Source of the DNA: Paenibacillus stellifer
GTDB lineage: Bacteria; Bacillota; Bacilli; Paenibacillales; Paenibacillaceae
NCBI RefSeq assembly: GCF_000758685.1
Contig: NZ_CP009286.1
Coordinates: 2,448,501-2,512,500 of the forward strand
Length of the DNA stretch: 64,000 nucleotides
Direction: 5' to 3'
Each line of letters begins with the position of its first letter. Position 1 is the first letter of the stretch. The notes under the pieces are model-generated. The model was not told the DNA's origin. It saw nothing but the letters and a program-made list of their open reading frames with translations, and did no database searches. The translations under genes were made by a program, and so were the position numbers. Positions 51,426-59,259 of the stretch are shown here, piece after piece.

Positions 51426-52685
51426 TCATTTATAGTGTCCGCCGATTTTGCCGGCCCGGTCCCTGAGCTGCCCCGAATCGGTGAAGGAGGAAGCTCTGCC
51501 GATAATGGCGTCTCCGTATTTGCTCTTCAGGAGATCGGTTGCCCGCTCGAGCTCGCGGTACTTCGGCCTGGATTCGAACAGGGTGAGCTGGTATTCCATC
51601 TCGCTGGACAGTCCCGACAGCGTGACGCTGACCCGGCGCACCGGCTGGTCGTCCCAGTGCAGCCGGAACAGCCGGATGGCGGCCTCGTAGACAAGGTTCG
51701 TGGCGTTGCAGGGATCGGGCAGGGTGGTCTGCCTGGAGAAGCCGGTCGGCTCCTCGAAGCTTGCGCCCTGGCACCCGACGGACACGACGGAGCCGTTCAT
51801 GCCGAGGCTCCGGCAGCGCCGGCAGACGAGCTCGCAGAGCTCCAGCAGCACCACCTTGATCTCGGCGAAGCTGCGGTAGTCGCGGGGCAGCGTCATCTGG
51901 TGGCCGACGCTCTTCGGCGGCGCGTCGTACGTGTCCGTATGTACGGGGCTGTCGTCGATGCCGTTCGCGATCCGCCAGTAGAGCTCGGCGTCGATGTCGC
52001 ACCGCTTGCGGAATTTCTCGCGCATCTTCCATTTCAGCTCGGCCAGCGGCATTTCGGCCAGCTGGCCGATCGTTAAGATGCCCATGCTGTCGAAGTGGGC
52101 CGCCATGCGGCGCCCGACCATGAACAGGTCTCCGATAGGCCGGGGCCACAGCCGGGAGGGCAGCAGGTCCCGGGACAGGGTGAACAGCCCGTTGTCCGAC
52201 TTCTTGGCCCACAGATCGCAGGCCATCTTGGCCGTCACCTTGGAGTAGCCGATGCCGATCCGGGCATAGACGCCGGTCTCGGTGCGGATCTGCTCCTGCA
52301 TGGCGGCGGCGATCTCCTCCGCGCTTCCGAAGAGCGCGAGGCTGCCGGTTATATCGACGAACTGCTCGTCGATCGAGTAGGGCTCCACCATGTCGCTGAA
52401 GGTGCGCAGAATGGCGGTGATCTGGGCGGAGACGTCGATGTATTGCTGCATCCGCGGCCGGACGACGACGAGGTCCGGGCATTTGGCCAGCGCTTCGCCG
52501 AGCGCCTCCGCCGTAGTGACGCCGCGCGCCTTGGCCAGCGGGCATGCGGCCAGCACGATGCCGCTGCGGCGGGCGGGATCGCCGGCGACGACGAGCGGCC
52601 GGCCGAGGTAGGCGGGCTGGGAGGCTTTTTCCACGGAGGCGTAGAAGCTCTGGCAGTCCGATAGCACAATGATGCGTTCTTTCAT
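51426..52685 (-). CDS. Y-family DNA polymerase of the UvrX/YqjW type
   Basis: 419-residue translesion polymerase. Catalytic acids lie in VLSDCQSFYASVEKA (first Asp, with Phe-Tyr steric gate region) and YSIDEQFVDIT (Asp-Glu), followed by a little-finger domain (VSVGCQGASFEEPTGFSR). It ends without a typical clamp-binding tail. The YSIDEQ variant and length match the Bacillus UvrX/YqjW group, which belongs to the SOS regulon, rather than DinB2/YqjH. ATG at 52685 follows GAGGAG. A LexA-like site with two mismatches lies 44 bp upstream, next to a TATAAT box. Confidence 0.88.
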   Translation of the reverse strand: MKERIIVLSDCQSFYASVEKASQPAYLGRPLVVAGDPARRSGIVLAACPLAKARGVTTAEALGEALAKCPDLVVVRPRMQQYIDVSAQITAILRTFSDMVEPYSIDEQFVDITGSLALFGSAEEIAAAMQEQIRTETGVYARIGIGYSKVTAKMACDLWAKKSDNGLFTLSRDLLPSRLWPRPIGDLFMVGRRMAAHFDSMGILTIGQLAEMPLAELKWKMREKFRKRCDIDAELYWRIANGIDDSPVHTDTYDAPPKSVGHQMTLPRDYRSFAEIKVVLLELCELVCRRCRSLGMNGSVVSVGCQGASFEEPTGFSRQTTLPDPCNATNLVYEAAIRLFRLHWDDQPVRRVSVTLSGLSSEMEYQLTLFESRPKYRELERATDLLKSKYGDAIIGRASSFTDSGQLRDRAGKIGGHYK

Positions 52686-52728
52686 GAGGGTCACGCTCCT
52701 CTTGGAGTAGTCTGCTCTCATTATAATG

Positions 52729-52742
52729 CGAACGTATGACCG
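52729..52742. promoter_or_regulatory. imperfect LexA-like box before Y-family polymerase gene
   Basis: CGAACGTATGACCG matches the Bacillus LexA consensus CGAACRNRYGTTYG at 12 of 14 positions and lies immediately upstream of a TATAAT sequence on the minus strand. Known SOS control of this polymerase group supports it. Confidence 0.45.
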
Positions 52743-52859: not shown

Positions 52860-55295
52860 TCAGCCGAGCTCTACGACGACCTGGTGAACGCCGCCGTCAA
52901 GCACCGGAGCGATAATGTTGCCTTCCACAGCCGCGCCGTCAAGCGTCAGGCTAGCCACGCCTTTGGAGACATGGTTAGGGTTCTTGATCTGGATGACGTA
53001 CGTATCACCGCGGAAGACGCGGGTGATTTCGAAGCAGTCCCACTCGGCCGGGATGCAAGGATCGACCTTCAGGCCGTCAAAGTCCGGCTGGATGCCGAGG
53101 ATGGCCTGAGTGATGGCAACATAGTTCCAGGCGGCCGTTCCGGTCAGCCAGGAGTTCTTCGCTTCGCCGTGGCGCACAGCGTCCTTGCCGGCGATCATCT
53201 GCGAGTAAACGTAAGGCTCGGTGCGATGAAGATCGCTGATGTCCTCCAGGTAGGCCGGAGCGATTTTAGAATAGATCTCGAATGCCCGGTCGCCATGTCC
53301 CAGAACGGTTTCGGCGATCATGATCCACGGATTGTTGTGGCAGAAAATGCCCGCGTTCTCCTTGTAGCCCGGCGGGTAGGTGGAGATTTCGCCAAGGTTC
53401 AGGTAGTACTTGGAATATGGCGGCTGCTGAAGCACGATGCCGTATTTGGTGTCGAGGCGCTCCTGTACGGAGGTCATCGACTTCTCGGCCTGGCCGCCCT
53501 CCACGCCGATTCCGGCCATAACGCAGATGCCCTGCGGCTCGATGAAGATCTGGCCTTCTTCGTTCTCCTTGCTGCCGATCTTCTCGCCATAGTGGTCATA
53601 GGCGCGCAGGAACCAGTCGCCGTCGAAGCCGTGGGTCAGCGTCGTCTGCCGCATATCTTCGATCTTCGCTTCGGCGTCCGTCGCCAGAGCCTCTTGGCCG
53701 CGCATCCGGCAGATCCGGGCATAGTCCGGTCCGACAAAGACGAAGAGGCCGGCGATGAATACGGATTCCGCTACGCGTCCTTCGATGTTCGCAGTCGTCT
53801 GGAACGATTCGCCCGGTTCCTTCGAGAAGCAGTTCAGGTTGAGGCAGTCATTCCAGTCGGCGCGTCCGATGAGCGGCAGGCCGTGCGGCCCCAGGTTGTT
53901 CGTAACATGCTCGAAGGAGACCTTCAGATGCTGGAACAGGGTAGCCGTGTTGTCCGGATTGCTGTCGAACGATACCTGCTCATCGAGAATGCTGACATCG
54001 CCGGTCTCCTTGATGTACGCAGCGGTGCCCAGAATCAGCCAGAGCGGGTCGTCGTTGAAGCCGGTGCCGACCTCGTTGTTGCCTTTCTTCGTGAGCGGCT
54101 GGTACTGGTGATAGGCGCTGCCGTCCTCGAACTGGGTGGCGGCGATGTCGAGAATGCGTTCCCGCGCGCGTTCCGGAATCTGGTGCACGAAGCCGAGCAG
54201 ATCCTGGTTGGAGTCGCGGAAGCCCATGCCGCGGCCGATGCCGGATTCGAAGTAGGAGGCGGAGCGGGACATGTTGAAGGTGACCATGCACTGGTACGGG
54301 TTCCAGATGTTGACCATGCGGTTCAGCTTGTCGTCGCCGCTCTGGATCTGGTACTTGGACAGCAGGCCGTCCCAATGGGCGGCGAGGGTTGCCAGAGCCA
54401 CGTCAACCTGCTCGTCGGTGGCGAACTGCTCGATCATGGCAAGCGCCGGCTTCTTGTTGATGACGTTCAGCGCTTCCCACTTGTCTTCTTCCTCGTTCTC
54501 GATGTAGCCGAGCACGAAGATCAGGCTCTGCTCTTCTCCCGGAGCCAATGTCAGATTCAGGGCATGGGAGCCGATCGGCGACCAGCCGCTGGCGACGGAG
54601 TTCGAGGCTTCGCCGTTTGCGACAACCTGCGGCGCATCCAGGCCATTGTACATGCCGAGGAAGGACTCGCGGTCCGTATCGAACCCGTCGAGCGGGCGGT
54701 TGACAGAGTAGAAGGCGTAGTGGTTGCGGCGCTCGCGGTACTCGGTCTTGTGGTAGATGACGGAATCCTTGACTTCAACTTCGCCGGTGCTGAGGTTGCG
54801 CTGGAAGTTGGTCATGTCGTCCTGGGCGTTCCAGAGACAGAATTCGGCGAAGGAGAACAGCTTAACCGATTTCTCCACAGATCCTGTATTCTTGACGACG
54901 AGACGGTGAACTTCCGCATTGTAGCCCATCGGGACAAAAGCCAGCTGGGTCACGGAAATGCCGTTCCGCTCACCGGTAATGGAGGTGTAGCCGAGGCCGT
55001 GGCGGCATTCGTAGAAGTCGAGATCGCGCTTGACCGGCATCCAGCCCGGAGTCCAGAAATCGCCGTTGTCATACAGGTAATAGTAGCGTCCGCCTGTATC
55101 GAGCGGAATGTTGTTGTAGCGGTAGCGGGTCAGTCTTCTCAGGCGGGCGTCGCGATAGAAGGTGTAGCCGCCGGCGGTATTGGAAATCAGGCCGAAAAAC
55201 TGCTCGTTGCCCAGGTAATTGATCCAGGGATAAGGCGTTTTGGGCGTGTTGATTACGTATTCCTTGCGATTGTCGTCAAAGGTTCCGAATTTCAT
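52860..55295 (-). CDS. cellobiose phosphorylase (GH94)
   Basis: 811-residue enzyme of the same length as characterised clostridial cellobiose phosphorylases. It phosphorolyses cellobiose to glucose 1-phosphate and glucose in the cytoplasm. The N-terminal beta-domain starts [20 protein letters not shown]; the (alpha/alpha)6 barrel includes [35 protein letters not shown] (catalytic Asp near residue 480) and [16 protein letters not shown]. The C-terminal [12 protein letters not shown] and DPCIPAEW are conserved. ATG at 55295 follows AAGGGGA. A LacI-type operator (AACGCGCGTT) lies 25 bp before the start, and its regulator gene is upstream on the same strand. No cellobiose transporter is in the window. 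Confidence 0.92.
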
Positions 55296-57167: not shown

Positions 57168-57376
57168 CAAATCGCCCCCCAAGCTGTGGTCCTGTAGTGT
57201 GATACGGCGAAACGAGGTGTGAGGTTGCATGATGCTTCCAAAAGATGGATGATGAAAATGAGGCAGCGTTCCGCCTTCGCTTGAAGCGTAAGAAAGGCGC
57301 AAGCTGCAAGATAATCAGGGTCTTCGGCTTCTCGGTAAACACCCGGAGAATTTTGGAAAATGGCGGCGTCTTACTC

Positions 57377-57434
57377 TTGATTTACGAACAAATGTTTGCC
57401 ATAATGAAGATGTTGATAAGCAAACATTTGTTCG
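57377..57434 (+). promoter_or_regulatory. promoter with two perfect LexA boxes in inverted orientation
   Basis: -35 TTGATT (57377) and -10 CATAAT (57400) are 17 bp apart, and CGAACAAATGTTTG (57385-57398) fills the spacer. A second copy on the opposite strand (57421-57434) lies after the expected transcription start. Both match the Bacillus LexA consensus CGAACRNRYGTTYG at every position. Each is embedded in one arm of a perfect 15-bp inverted repeat (57385-57399 and 57420-57434). The ribosome site GGAGGTG begins immediately after. This should give tight SOS repression of the WYL gene. Confidence 0.85.
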
Positions 57435-57446
57435 GAGGTGCGTTGC

Positions 57447-57647
57447 ATGCCGAGAAAATATATAGGACATACCGTGGAAATCGTATATCTGGACAGTAAG
57501 GGCAAGTTAACCCAGCGGGTCATCACTGTCAACGATATCCGGGGTGGCCTCGTCCGGGCCTCATGCCTGGCTTCGGGAAGTCCACGGTCCTTTCGTCTGG
57601 ACCGGATTTTGGCCTGGCGGCTGGTGAATGGGGCGAAGGCCTCGTGA
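57447..57647 (+). CDS. small WYL-domain protein under SOS control
   Basis: 66-residue protein resembling an isolated WYL domain: a short beta strand IGHTVEIVYLDSKGKLTQR, the ITVNDIRGGLVRASCLA segment and an Arg-rich end SPRSFRLDRILAWRLV. WYL modules bind nucleic acid or signal ligands and often occur in CRISPR and phage-defence regulators; a stand-alone copy has no assigned role. ATG at 57447 follows GGAGGTG. The promoter carries two perfect LexA boxes, so the gene should be induced by DNA damage. No other SOS gene is cotranscribed. Confidence 0.8.
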   Translation: MPRKYIGHTVEIVYLDSKGKLTQRVITVNDIRGGLVRASCLASGSPRSFRLDRILAWRLVNGAKAS

Positions 57648-57736
57648 GCTAAAGATTCTGCGGCTCTCCGGTTTTCTTTGATATCCCGTCAGCTTACAAT
57701 AGGTAGCAGCGGAAGACTGGAGAAGGAGGTACGCTA

Positions 57737-58198
57737 ATGGACATTCGAGTTCTGGAAGGGGCCGAACGGGCGGAGGCAGCCCGGGAAGCCGGGTCTGTCA
57801 TGGTGTCCCGGGGACAACTGCATGTTCTGGAGCATCTGCCGGGTTACTATGCGGCCGACGAGGATGGAAACACGGTGGGAGAAGTCTTTTACCATATTGA
57901 GAACAGGGAGTGCGAAGTTGTGTCGCTGGAGAGCCGGCGGGAGAACAGGGGAGCAGGCACGGAACTGATCGGCGCCGTAGTAAGGCGGGCAAGGGATGAA
58001 GGCTGCACCCGAGTGTGGCTGATCACCTCGAACGACAATACGAGGGCTATCCGGTTCTATCAGAAGAGAGGGCTTGATCTGAAGGCGGTTCACCGGGACG
58101 CTATAACGGAAGCCCGAAAGCTGAAGCCGTCCATTCCCCTTATCGGCATGGATGGTATCCCCATCCGCCATGAGCTTGAATTTGAGCTGACACTGTAG
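57737..58198 (+). CDS. GNAT-family N-acetyltransferase
   Basis: 153-residue GNAT enzyme. It starts MDIRVLEGAERAEAAREAG. Acetyl-CoA motif A is CEVVSLESRRENRGAGTELI, and NDNTRAIRFYQKRGLDLKAV is the motif B helix. The C-terminal ARKLKPSIPLIGMDGIPIRH identifies a common Bacillales subgroup of unknown substrate. ATG at 57737 follows GAAGGAGG. It lies 89 bp after the WYL gene, with no terminator seen between them, so read-through from the SOS promoter is possible. Confidence 0.85.
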   Translation: MDIRVLEGAERAEAAREAGSVMVSRGQLHVLEHLPGYYAADEDGNTVGEVFYHIENRECEVVSLESRRENRGAGTELIGAVVRRARDEGCTRVWLITSNDNTRAIRFYQKRGLDLKAVHRDAITEARKLKPSIPLIGMDGIPIRHELEFELTL

Positions 58199-58281
58199 AA
58201 GGAACTGTCCGCAGAGGCAGGAATATCCAGGGAGGGAGAGAATAGTTTCAAGGAGAACGCTGGCAGGAAAGGAGAGGACAT

Positions 58282-58803
58282 ATGAAGCAAACGGACATCA
58301 GCAGGGCGGATTTCGATGCCGTCCGGGATTATGATTTGGGACGAGCTTGTGTGGAACCGGTATTCCGTCAGATCCGCGGAAAGAGTATGGCGGTTAAGGC
58401 TGAGGCTCTTGCGCAACTAAATGAAGGACAGCGGGCGGTGTGTATGTTCGAGATTCTATACCGCCATGCCGTGAACTCTCCGGAGGAGTATTACGGATGG
58501 ATATCCCATCTGCTGGGTCAGCCCAATATGTGGCAGGAGGTGCTGCAGGGGCTGGAGTTCTTTGCGGATACTACCCTGATTCCGGTGCTGGAGAGAAGCG
58601 AGATCTATCTTCGGGAACGTAATTTACGGCTTGGACGTTCATGGGAGGACAATAAGCTGACCGAACTTGCGCGCGACAATGAATTGAGAAATGCAGTAGG
58701 GGAGCAGCACCGCGAATTCCAGGCCGCCGCCTTGCAATTGCTGGAGACCATCGCGGCGTATATCCGAAGAAAACCGGACGAATTTGTTCGCTTTGTGGAC
58801 TAA
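58282..58803 (+). CDS. conserved hypothetical protein, possibly DUF4375/DMP19-like
   Basis: 173-residue soluble, helical protein. Identifiable segments are RAVCMFEILYRHAVNSPEEY, YGWISHLLGQPNMWQEVLQG and, near the C-terminus, LQLLETIAAYIRRKPDEFVR. The helical layout and the central YYGWISHL block recall DMP19/DUF4375-like immunity-type proteins, but I am not confident. ATG at 58282 has an AGGAAAGGAGAGG tract upstream. It is single, 83 bp after the GNAT gene, and may share its transcript. Confidence 0.55.
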   Translation: MKQTDISRADFDAVRDYDLGRACVEPVFRQIRGKSMAVKAEALAQLNEGQRAVCMFEILYRHAVNSPEEYYGWISHLLGQPNMWQEVLQGLEFFADTTLIPVLERSEIYLRERNLRLGRSWEDNKLTELARDNELRNAVGEQHREFQAAALQLLETIAAYIRRKPDEFVRFVD

Positions 58804-58911
58804 ATCATCCCTATGAAACCTTGGTCCTGTTTTTCTGCATATTGTGACATTTGTCTTAGGATAAAAATACTAGAAAATGCATAATAAACAGAGAATATTG
58901 GAAAAGGGTGG

Positions 58912-59259
58912 ATGATGTTGGGGACTGGAATCAATGTGAATGTTAATGTGCCAGGGCAAAATGGAGCCTCCTATTTCGACGGAGGACTGCTGGAGTATAT
59001 CGGCTGGGCTCTTGTCGGATGGCTCGTAACGGTCTGCACGATCGGAATCTGTTATCCTTGGGCGGTTGTTGTGCTGTACCGCTGGAAAATCGAGCACACC
59101 GTAATCAATGGACAGCGGCTCCGCTTCGACGGAACGGCCATGCAGTTGTTCGGCAACTGGATCAAATGGTGGCTGCTGTGCATCATTACCCTCGGCATTT
59201 ACTCGTTCTGGCTCTCGATTAAGCTGGAACAGTGGAGAGTCAAGCATACATACTTCTAA
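58912..59259 (+). CDS. DUF898-like small membrane protein
   Basis: 115-residue protein with two long hydrophobic segments (IGWALVGWLVTVCTIGICYP and IKWWLLCIITLGIYSFWL). The repeated theme WVVLYRWKIEHT and LEQWRVKHT, with RLRFDGTAMQLFGNW between, matches the DUF898/YjgN family of inner-membrane proteins of unknown function, here as a single short unit. ATG at 58912 follows AAAAGGG. An excellent terminator follows the stop. Confidence 0.75.
   Translation: MMLGTGINVNVNVPGQNGASYFDGGLLEYIGWALVGWLVTVCTIGICYPWAVVVLYRWKIEHTVINGQRLRFDGTAMQLFGNWIKWWLLCIITLGIYSFWLSIKLEQWRVKHTYF

Follow-up and report, generated by a model that had tools for sequence, protein, structure and literature searches.

A stand-alone WYL-barrel gene behind paired predicted LexA operators in Paenibacillus stellifer

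The promoter of the window gene

The stretch of DNA considered here (the window: 64,000 nucleotides of Paenibacillus stellifer, assembly GCF_000758685.1, contig NZ_CP009286.1, positions 2,448,501 to 2,512,500) contains a small gene encoding a stand-alone WYL domain of 66 amino acids, whose promoter carries two perfect matches to the LexA consensus. Its features, in window coordinates, are:

57377..57382, plus strand: -35 hexamer TTGATT (promoter scan)
57385..57398, plus strand: predicted LexA box 1, CGAACAAATGTTTG (pattern match)
57400..57405, plus strand: -10 hexamer CATAAT (promoter scan)
57421..57434, minus strand: predicted LexA box 2, inverted, abutting the ribosome site
57435..57439, plus strand: Shine-Dalgarno sequence GGAGG (read directly), followed by ATG at 57447
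57447..57647, plus strand: stand-alone WYL-domain gene, 66 amino acids

In a pattern scan of the window, CGAACAAATGTTTG at 57385-57398 and its inverted copy at 57421-57434 both show zero mismatches to CGAACNNNNGTTYG, which we take to be the 14-mer LexA consensus of the B. subtilis literature. An initial annotation had singled out these two boxes, along with a perfect 15-bp inverted repeat and an exact 17-bp spacer around box 1. All three details hold: the arms at 57385-57399 and 57420-57434, read from the sequence, are exact reverse complements, and the promoter scan places 17 bp between the -35 and -10 hexamers so that, given their positions, box 1 lies wholly within the spacer. Box 2 sits between the -10 hexamer and the ribosome site, just 3' of the expected start point. 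Note that the inverted orientation of the boxes adds little, because each box is nearly palindromic.

Across the genome (5,658,798 bp) the perfect pattern yields 15 matches at 14 sites, and the window pair is the only pair within 100 bp. A reversed control pattern gives more matches (45 and 47), which shows that base composition does not favour the LexA consensus. The window contains 14 LexA-like sites with one mismatch against a shuffle mean of 8.5, a count reached by 11 of 100 shuffles and thus not clearly above chance; the evidence therefore consists of the perfect pair and its conservation.

The same type of motif recurs at other genes of this genome. Its one lexA gene has two boxes upstream with one mismatch each, and three more lie beside a divergent LysM-type open reading frame (ORF; by eye). 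Upstream of recA we find CGAATGTATGTTCG, and upstream of a full-length YolD gene CAAACATACGTTCC. The boxes at lexA, recA and the YolD gene resemble the Bacillus SOS arrangement.

Two further observations concern perfect sites elsewhere in the genome. At C1:2254550 (L006), CGAACAAATGTTTG stands about 0.1-0.2 kb 5' of a deoxynucleoside-kinase-like ORF (by eye), possibly an SOS-controlled nucleotide salvage gene, and at C1:267169 and C1:268627 (L001, L002) perfect LexA-like boxes flank both ends of a minus-strand ORF for an APC-type permease (by eye).

The gene family and its upstream boxes

Relatives of the protein are present in 82 of 100 related genomes and in 143 of 299 Bacilli genomes; 63 of the 65 named loci from a family-alignment search are labelled Paenibacillus. 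To gauge conservation we used 117 fetched regions with 119 WYL ORF matches, having set aside several weak, partial or short-contig matches. Two loci (L118 and L162) contribute two rows each, one of the L162 rows being a broken frame of the same gene.

Of these 119 ORFs, 104 have a box with no more than one mismatch in the 250 bp upstream; 54 have two or more boxes, and 21 have at least one perfect box. By comparison, random stretches of the same regions contain at least one box in 158 of 5224 cases and two or more in 28, while the corresponding figures for other open frames of 250 amino acids or more, taken as they come rather than verified as genes, are 12 of 484 and zero. Full-length WYL regulators of this genome have a box in none of 11 cases (12 matches exceeded the cut-off, one of them a short ORF that was dropped). 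The initial annotation had proposed that a lack of boxes upstream of orthologues would speak against its reading, and these counts run the other way.

The arrangement of the boxes is conserved too. The last two boxes lie 23 bp apart in 41 of the 54 multi-box loci, with a perfect TATAAT between them in 40 of these 41; the clade of the window gene has a wider spacing of 34-36 bp. In this near clade (L076, the window gene, to L080), positions -160 to -80 are 26-35% identical by position (ungapped), while box 1 is identical in all five members. TTGA(T/A)TT and ATAAT are likewise kept in all five, and box 2 has at most one mismatch in L077-L080.

Might the boxes nonetheless be chance matches, or sites for another repressor, with the gene outside SOS control? 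The window as a whole shows no clear excess of one-mismatch sites, as noted above, and LexA control is a prediction. Against this stand the conservation of the boxes, the controls and the same motif type at lexA, and we consider this explanation very improbable. Conservation argues that the window gene is, with high probability, under LexA control, with LexA binding and induction predicted. Beyond the window, the stand-alone WYL barrel family is in our reading part of the SOS regulon in Paenibacillus, and probably so in many other Bacilli. Distant Bacilli loci, hand-picked across families and taken without control regions, have a box in 20 of 40 cases and two in 5 of 40; proviral loci have one in 27 of 27 and two in 12 of 27. 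That control is universal is a different matter: 15 of the 119 WYL copies, mostly distant ones, lack a box, and the 6.2 kb taken from phage Fern contains no box with one mismatch or fewer, both of which count against it.

Turning to the protein, its score with the Pfam WYL model (PF13280) is 18.7 bits, below the curated cut-off of 21.8, and 36 of 82 family members match that model at E of 0.1 or less. Family assignment consequently comes from profile comparison and fold. Alignment by hhalign with the WYL domains of this genome's own regulators gives a probability of 93% over residues 7-58. AlphaFold2 (AF2) predicts an Sm/SH3-like barrel with a pLDDT of 90, for which the top Foldseek and VIA matches include BrxR, PafBC, DriD and CapW. 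The protein thus belongs to the WYL superfamily, a statement about the superfamily rather than the Pfam model, and the WYL assignment made from sequence alone was correct.

Residue counts (five of the 119 ORFs were left out; alignment A1 comprises 82 sequences) show that, among 114 relatives, R24 is present in 113, R37 in 94 (with K in 13), C40 in 111 and R47 in all 114. PMC4012209 describes a WYL groove pattern of four conserved basic residues and a cysteine. The present family has three conserved basic positions and a variable fourth, in its own numbering rather than that of the PMC4012209 alignment. R50 and R53 are present in the window protein, and arginine occupies these positions in 36 and 20 of the 114 relatives. 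The ratio of non-synonymous to synonymous substitution rates (dN/dS) is 0.05-0.22 for the window gene against L077-L080 and 0.05-0.27 over all near-clade pairs: the window gene is under purifying selection. The protein also matches phrog_6785, a PHROGs family of unassigned function (E 1e-12), and, in PADLOC, two WYL profiles, one associated with reverse transcriptases (E 3e-6) and one of generic CRISPR-associated type.

A mobile origin of the gene has to be weighed here. The gene might be prophage or mobile cargo that plays no part in host repair and modulates, for example, prophage induction. Relatives do occur on mobile elements: there are 27 IMG/VR loci, 20 phage records (all with P. larvae hosts) and seven plasmid-collection records, and phage Fern has the WYL gene beside YolD, a winged helix-turn-helix (wHTH) gene and an integrase. 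However, the window neighbours that we examined (a LacI regulator, a GNAT acetyltransferase, a polymerase and a DUF898 protein) are non-phage genes, in L080 the WYL gene has a LacI relative and an ORF similar to window ORF 52860-55295 nearby (partly by eye), and the window protein is under purifying selection, which makes the cargo explanation improbable. In temperate P. larvae phage Fern itself (L365, NC_028851), YolD, the mini-WYL and the wHTH gene stand in a row near the integrase.

Operon neighbours and translesion polymerases

Three further features of the window bear on the gene's surroundings:

57737..58198, plus strand: GNAT acetyltransferase gene, possibly cotranscribed with the WYL gene
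51426..52721, minus strand: UvrX/YqjW-type Y-family DNA polymerase, likely start 52685 (NF002848, 595 bits)
52729..52742, minus strand: weak LexA-like site (L209) with two mismatches, upstream of this polymerase

The initial annotation described the WYL gene as the only one behind its promoter. The window copy is indeed solo, but the GNAT gene at 57737 could be cotranscribed with it, since no terminator-like site was found in 57300-58950. The GNAT gene and the next ORF recur in only one (L077) of 12 other loci compared. The polymerase at 51426..52721 is a functional relative in a separate operon; among the matches listed, neither a YolD nor a YhjD partner lies within 600 bp of it, nor a WYL gene within 2 kb.

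For the family, the picture of an isolated single gene does not hold. We recounted operon neighbours with profiles at E 1e-4 and the polymerase by phmmer; PolY denotes the UvrX/YqjW type (NF002848), and 'YhjD-like' denotes an arm (by eye) plus operon position rather than a comparison with the Cohnella protein. Of the 119 copies, 82 have at least one of four genes (wHTH, polymerase, YhjD-like, YolD) within 2.6 kb downstream: PolY, YhjD or YolD in 60 and wHTH in 45. The other 37 have none of the four. By arrangement, 23 are WYL>PolY>YhjD, 22 WYL>wHTH, 11 WYL>wHTH>YolD, 11 WYL>wHTH>YhjD, six WYL>YhjD and three WYL>YolD; 30 have none of these genes within about 2.5 kb on either side, and the remaining 13 fall into twelve rarer arrangements, including two with divergent PolY-YhjD neighbours. 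PolY typically starts 8 nt before the WYL gene ends. The family gene, then, often heads an SOS operon, including operons with error-prone polymerases or their partner proteins. Two near relatives of the window protein, 80% and 75% identical to it, stand at divergent PolY-YhjD loci (L078 and L079), and the window gene may accordingly be a solo remnant of a divergent arrangement. In the proviral set (n=27), downstream genes are wHTH in 19 loci, YolD in 12, YhjD in six and polymerase in none.

The frequent wHTH neighbour raises an alternative. The downstream family, wHTH99, resembles the LexA DNA-binding domain and has no peptidase part. Imagine that the WYL barrel sensed single-stranded DNA (ssDNA) or a nucleotide and that a separate DNA-binding partner, wHTH99 or a full-length WYL regulator, tuned SOS or prophage genes. 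Such a split regulator would fit the presence of wHTH99 downstream of 45 of 119 copies, this genome's second copy among them, and in 19 of 27 proviral loci. It would also fit the predicted fold of wHTH99, for which nine of the eleven best PDB rows are LexA DNA-binding domains (best E 0.0017), the LexA_DNA_bind matches of six of 24 wHTH99 members, and the statement in PMC4012209 that the commonest fusion partner of WYL domains is the wHTH domain. Yet no wHTH99 gene separates the members of the WYL>PolY>YhjD operons, nor did one turn up within 2.5 kb of the window gene. We therefore regard a split regulator as unlikely, if worth keeping in mind; wHTH99 could partner WYL or vie with LexA for operator binding.

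wHTH99 does not behave as an ordinary Pfam family: searching with one sequence yielded no match, the set gave weak matches to LexA_DNA_bind and HTH_36, and the fold gave LexA DNA-binding domains. Its members (L081, L095, L125 and others) often end in a DYWxxY-like tail. At L125 (C1:3274054), this genome's second mini-WYL is followed by the LexA-DBD-like wHTH gene and stands about 0.5 kb 5' of an Hfq-like ORF (by eye).

A second line of evidence comes from the polymerases themselves. We took the 111 best UvrX/YqjW-type polymerases in 100 genomes, leaving out lower-scoring ones such as this genome's second, and the best 108 YolD genes among the matches listed; when 42 other listed places were added, one polymerase previously without a partner was assigned to YolD. 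A YhjD-like partner accompanies 55 of the 111 polymerases, and 32 of these 55 have a WYL gene (upstream in 29, near in three). Among the matches listed, 36 polymerases have a YolD partner, with WYL near two of them and directly upstream of none, and 20 have no partner found, with WYL within 2 kb of none. The contrast between YhjD-type and YolD-type polymerases among these matches (32/55 versus 2/36; Fisher P 1.4e-7) holds within the genus (29/40 versus 0/14; Fisher P 1.4e-6), both tests being uncorrected for relatedness. Of the YolD-type polymerases, the two with WYL near (G063 and G074) have a loose YhjD-like match close by as well.

YolD has been proposed to take the place of UmuD in Gram-positive Pol V-like complexes, and variants are described that consist of the arm only or of the arm fused to another domain (PMC6511836, PMC12926913). 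Because WYL genes accompany YhjD-type and rarely YolD-type polymerases, the WYL protein may supply in trans the SH3/WYL barrel that an arm-only YhjD-type subunit lacks, contributing a basic groove for ssDNA to a split Pol V-like mutasome. The window gene would then be a lone, SOS-induced version of this subunit that works with a polymerase encoded at another locus. We put this forward tentatively and with more doubt than conviction: 12 of the best 108 YolD genes stand behind a WYL gene in operons that lack a polymerase, and no WYL accompanies 23 of the 55 YhjD-type polymerases; both observations weigh against barrel supply. If true, supply in trans would help to account for the assembly of Gram-positive mutasomes whose small subunits have no barrel, and it would give the ssDNA-sensing WYL fold a further, stand-alone use.

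Two isolated loci show other forms of these proteins. At L060 what looks by eye like a shortened WYL remnant continues in frame into a YolD ORF, and the 72-aa YolD-like ORF at L194:5962-6180 (C1:531873) is an arm-only form, breaking off early in the barrel region.

Taken as a whole, we lean, by no wide measure, towards an SOS-regulated solo WYL barrel behind two clamping LexA operators, accessory to translesion synthesis or damage tolerance. The operators, the promoter design, their conservation, the operon linkage, the predicted fold and purifying selection are computed observations. Mechanistically, LexA would bind both operators and clamp the promoter, box 1 between the -35 and -10 hexamers and box 2 just 3' of the -10; with two such operators, tight repression is expected, followed by strong induction once RecA-ssDNA triggers LexA cleavage. 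The protein would be a small barrel of Sm/SH3-like fold that has the conserved basic WYL groove, most likely binding ssDNA or another nucleic acid at damaged forks. It may act with UvrX/YqjW-type polymerases and their YolD/YhjD partners or in general damage tolerance, an accessory role for which we judge the case evenly balanced.

The initial annotation was thus sound on the boxes and the WYL domain; its single-gene picture does not extend to the family, and it missed the SOS operon setting. These results point to an uncharacterised, probably SOS-controlled family that is widespread in Bacilli and often heads operons for error-prone polymerases or their small subunits, the composition of which is a matter of debate. 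With its -10 between two LexA boxes, the paired-operator promoter represents a compact natural design for tight SOS control.

Comparison with known systems

The annotation's remark that a LexA-controlled small WYL protein had not been described stands within the PMC literature searched, where no paper on a stand-alone one was found, and source names for these proteins are hypothetical, WYL domain-containing, YafY-like or other transcriptional regulator. The Hfq/Sm proteins share 11% identity with the window protein where they match it.

YolD/YqjX (PF08863), the SOS-controlled partner of UvrX/YqjW, resembles the window protein in its small size and in its links to LexA control and to this kind of polymerase, and PMC4012209 and PMC6511836 assign YolD to the WYL superfamily with an SH3-like barrel. 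The window protein lacks YolD's N-terminal arm and does not match PF08863 even at E up to 1. We considered WYL as a diverged YolD, which the sequence does not support, given the missing PF08863 match and an hhalign probability of 2.3% against verified YolD sequences. The latter is a weak test, because YolD against this genome's WYL regulators also fails (0.2%), although PMC4012209 places both in one superfamily. The YhjD-type small subunit, a YolD arm fused to another domain (PMC12926913), shares operons with the WYL gene in the order WYL>PolY>YhjD-like; it carries the arm without the YolD barrel, whereas the WYL protein is barrel only.

Finally, PafBC and DriD, WYL regulators of the damage response, share the domain fold of the window protein, and the ssDNA-binding arginines of PafC align to its R50 and R53, positions at which 36 and 20 of the 114 relatives have arginine. 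But PafBC, DriD and BrxR are full-length transcription factors that combine wHTH and WYL in a single chain, whereas the window protein is a bare 66-aa barrel behind predicted LexA operators.
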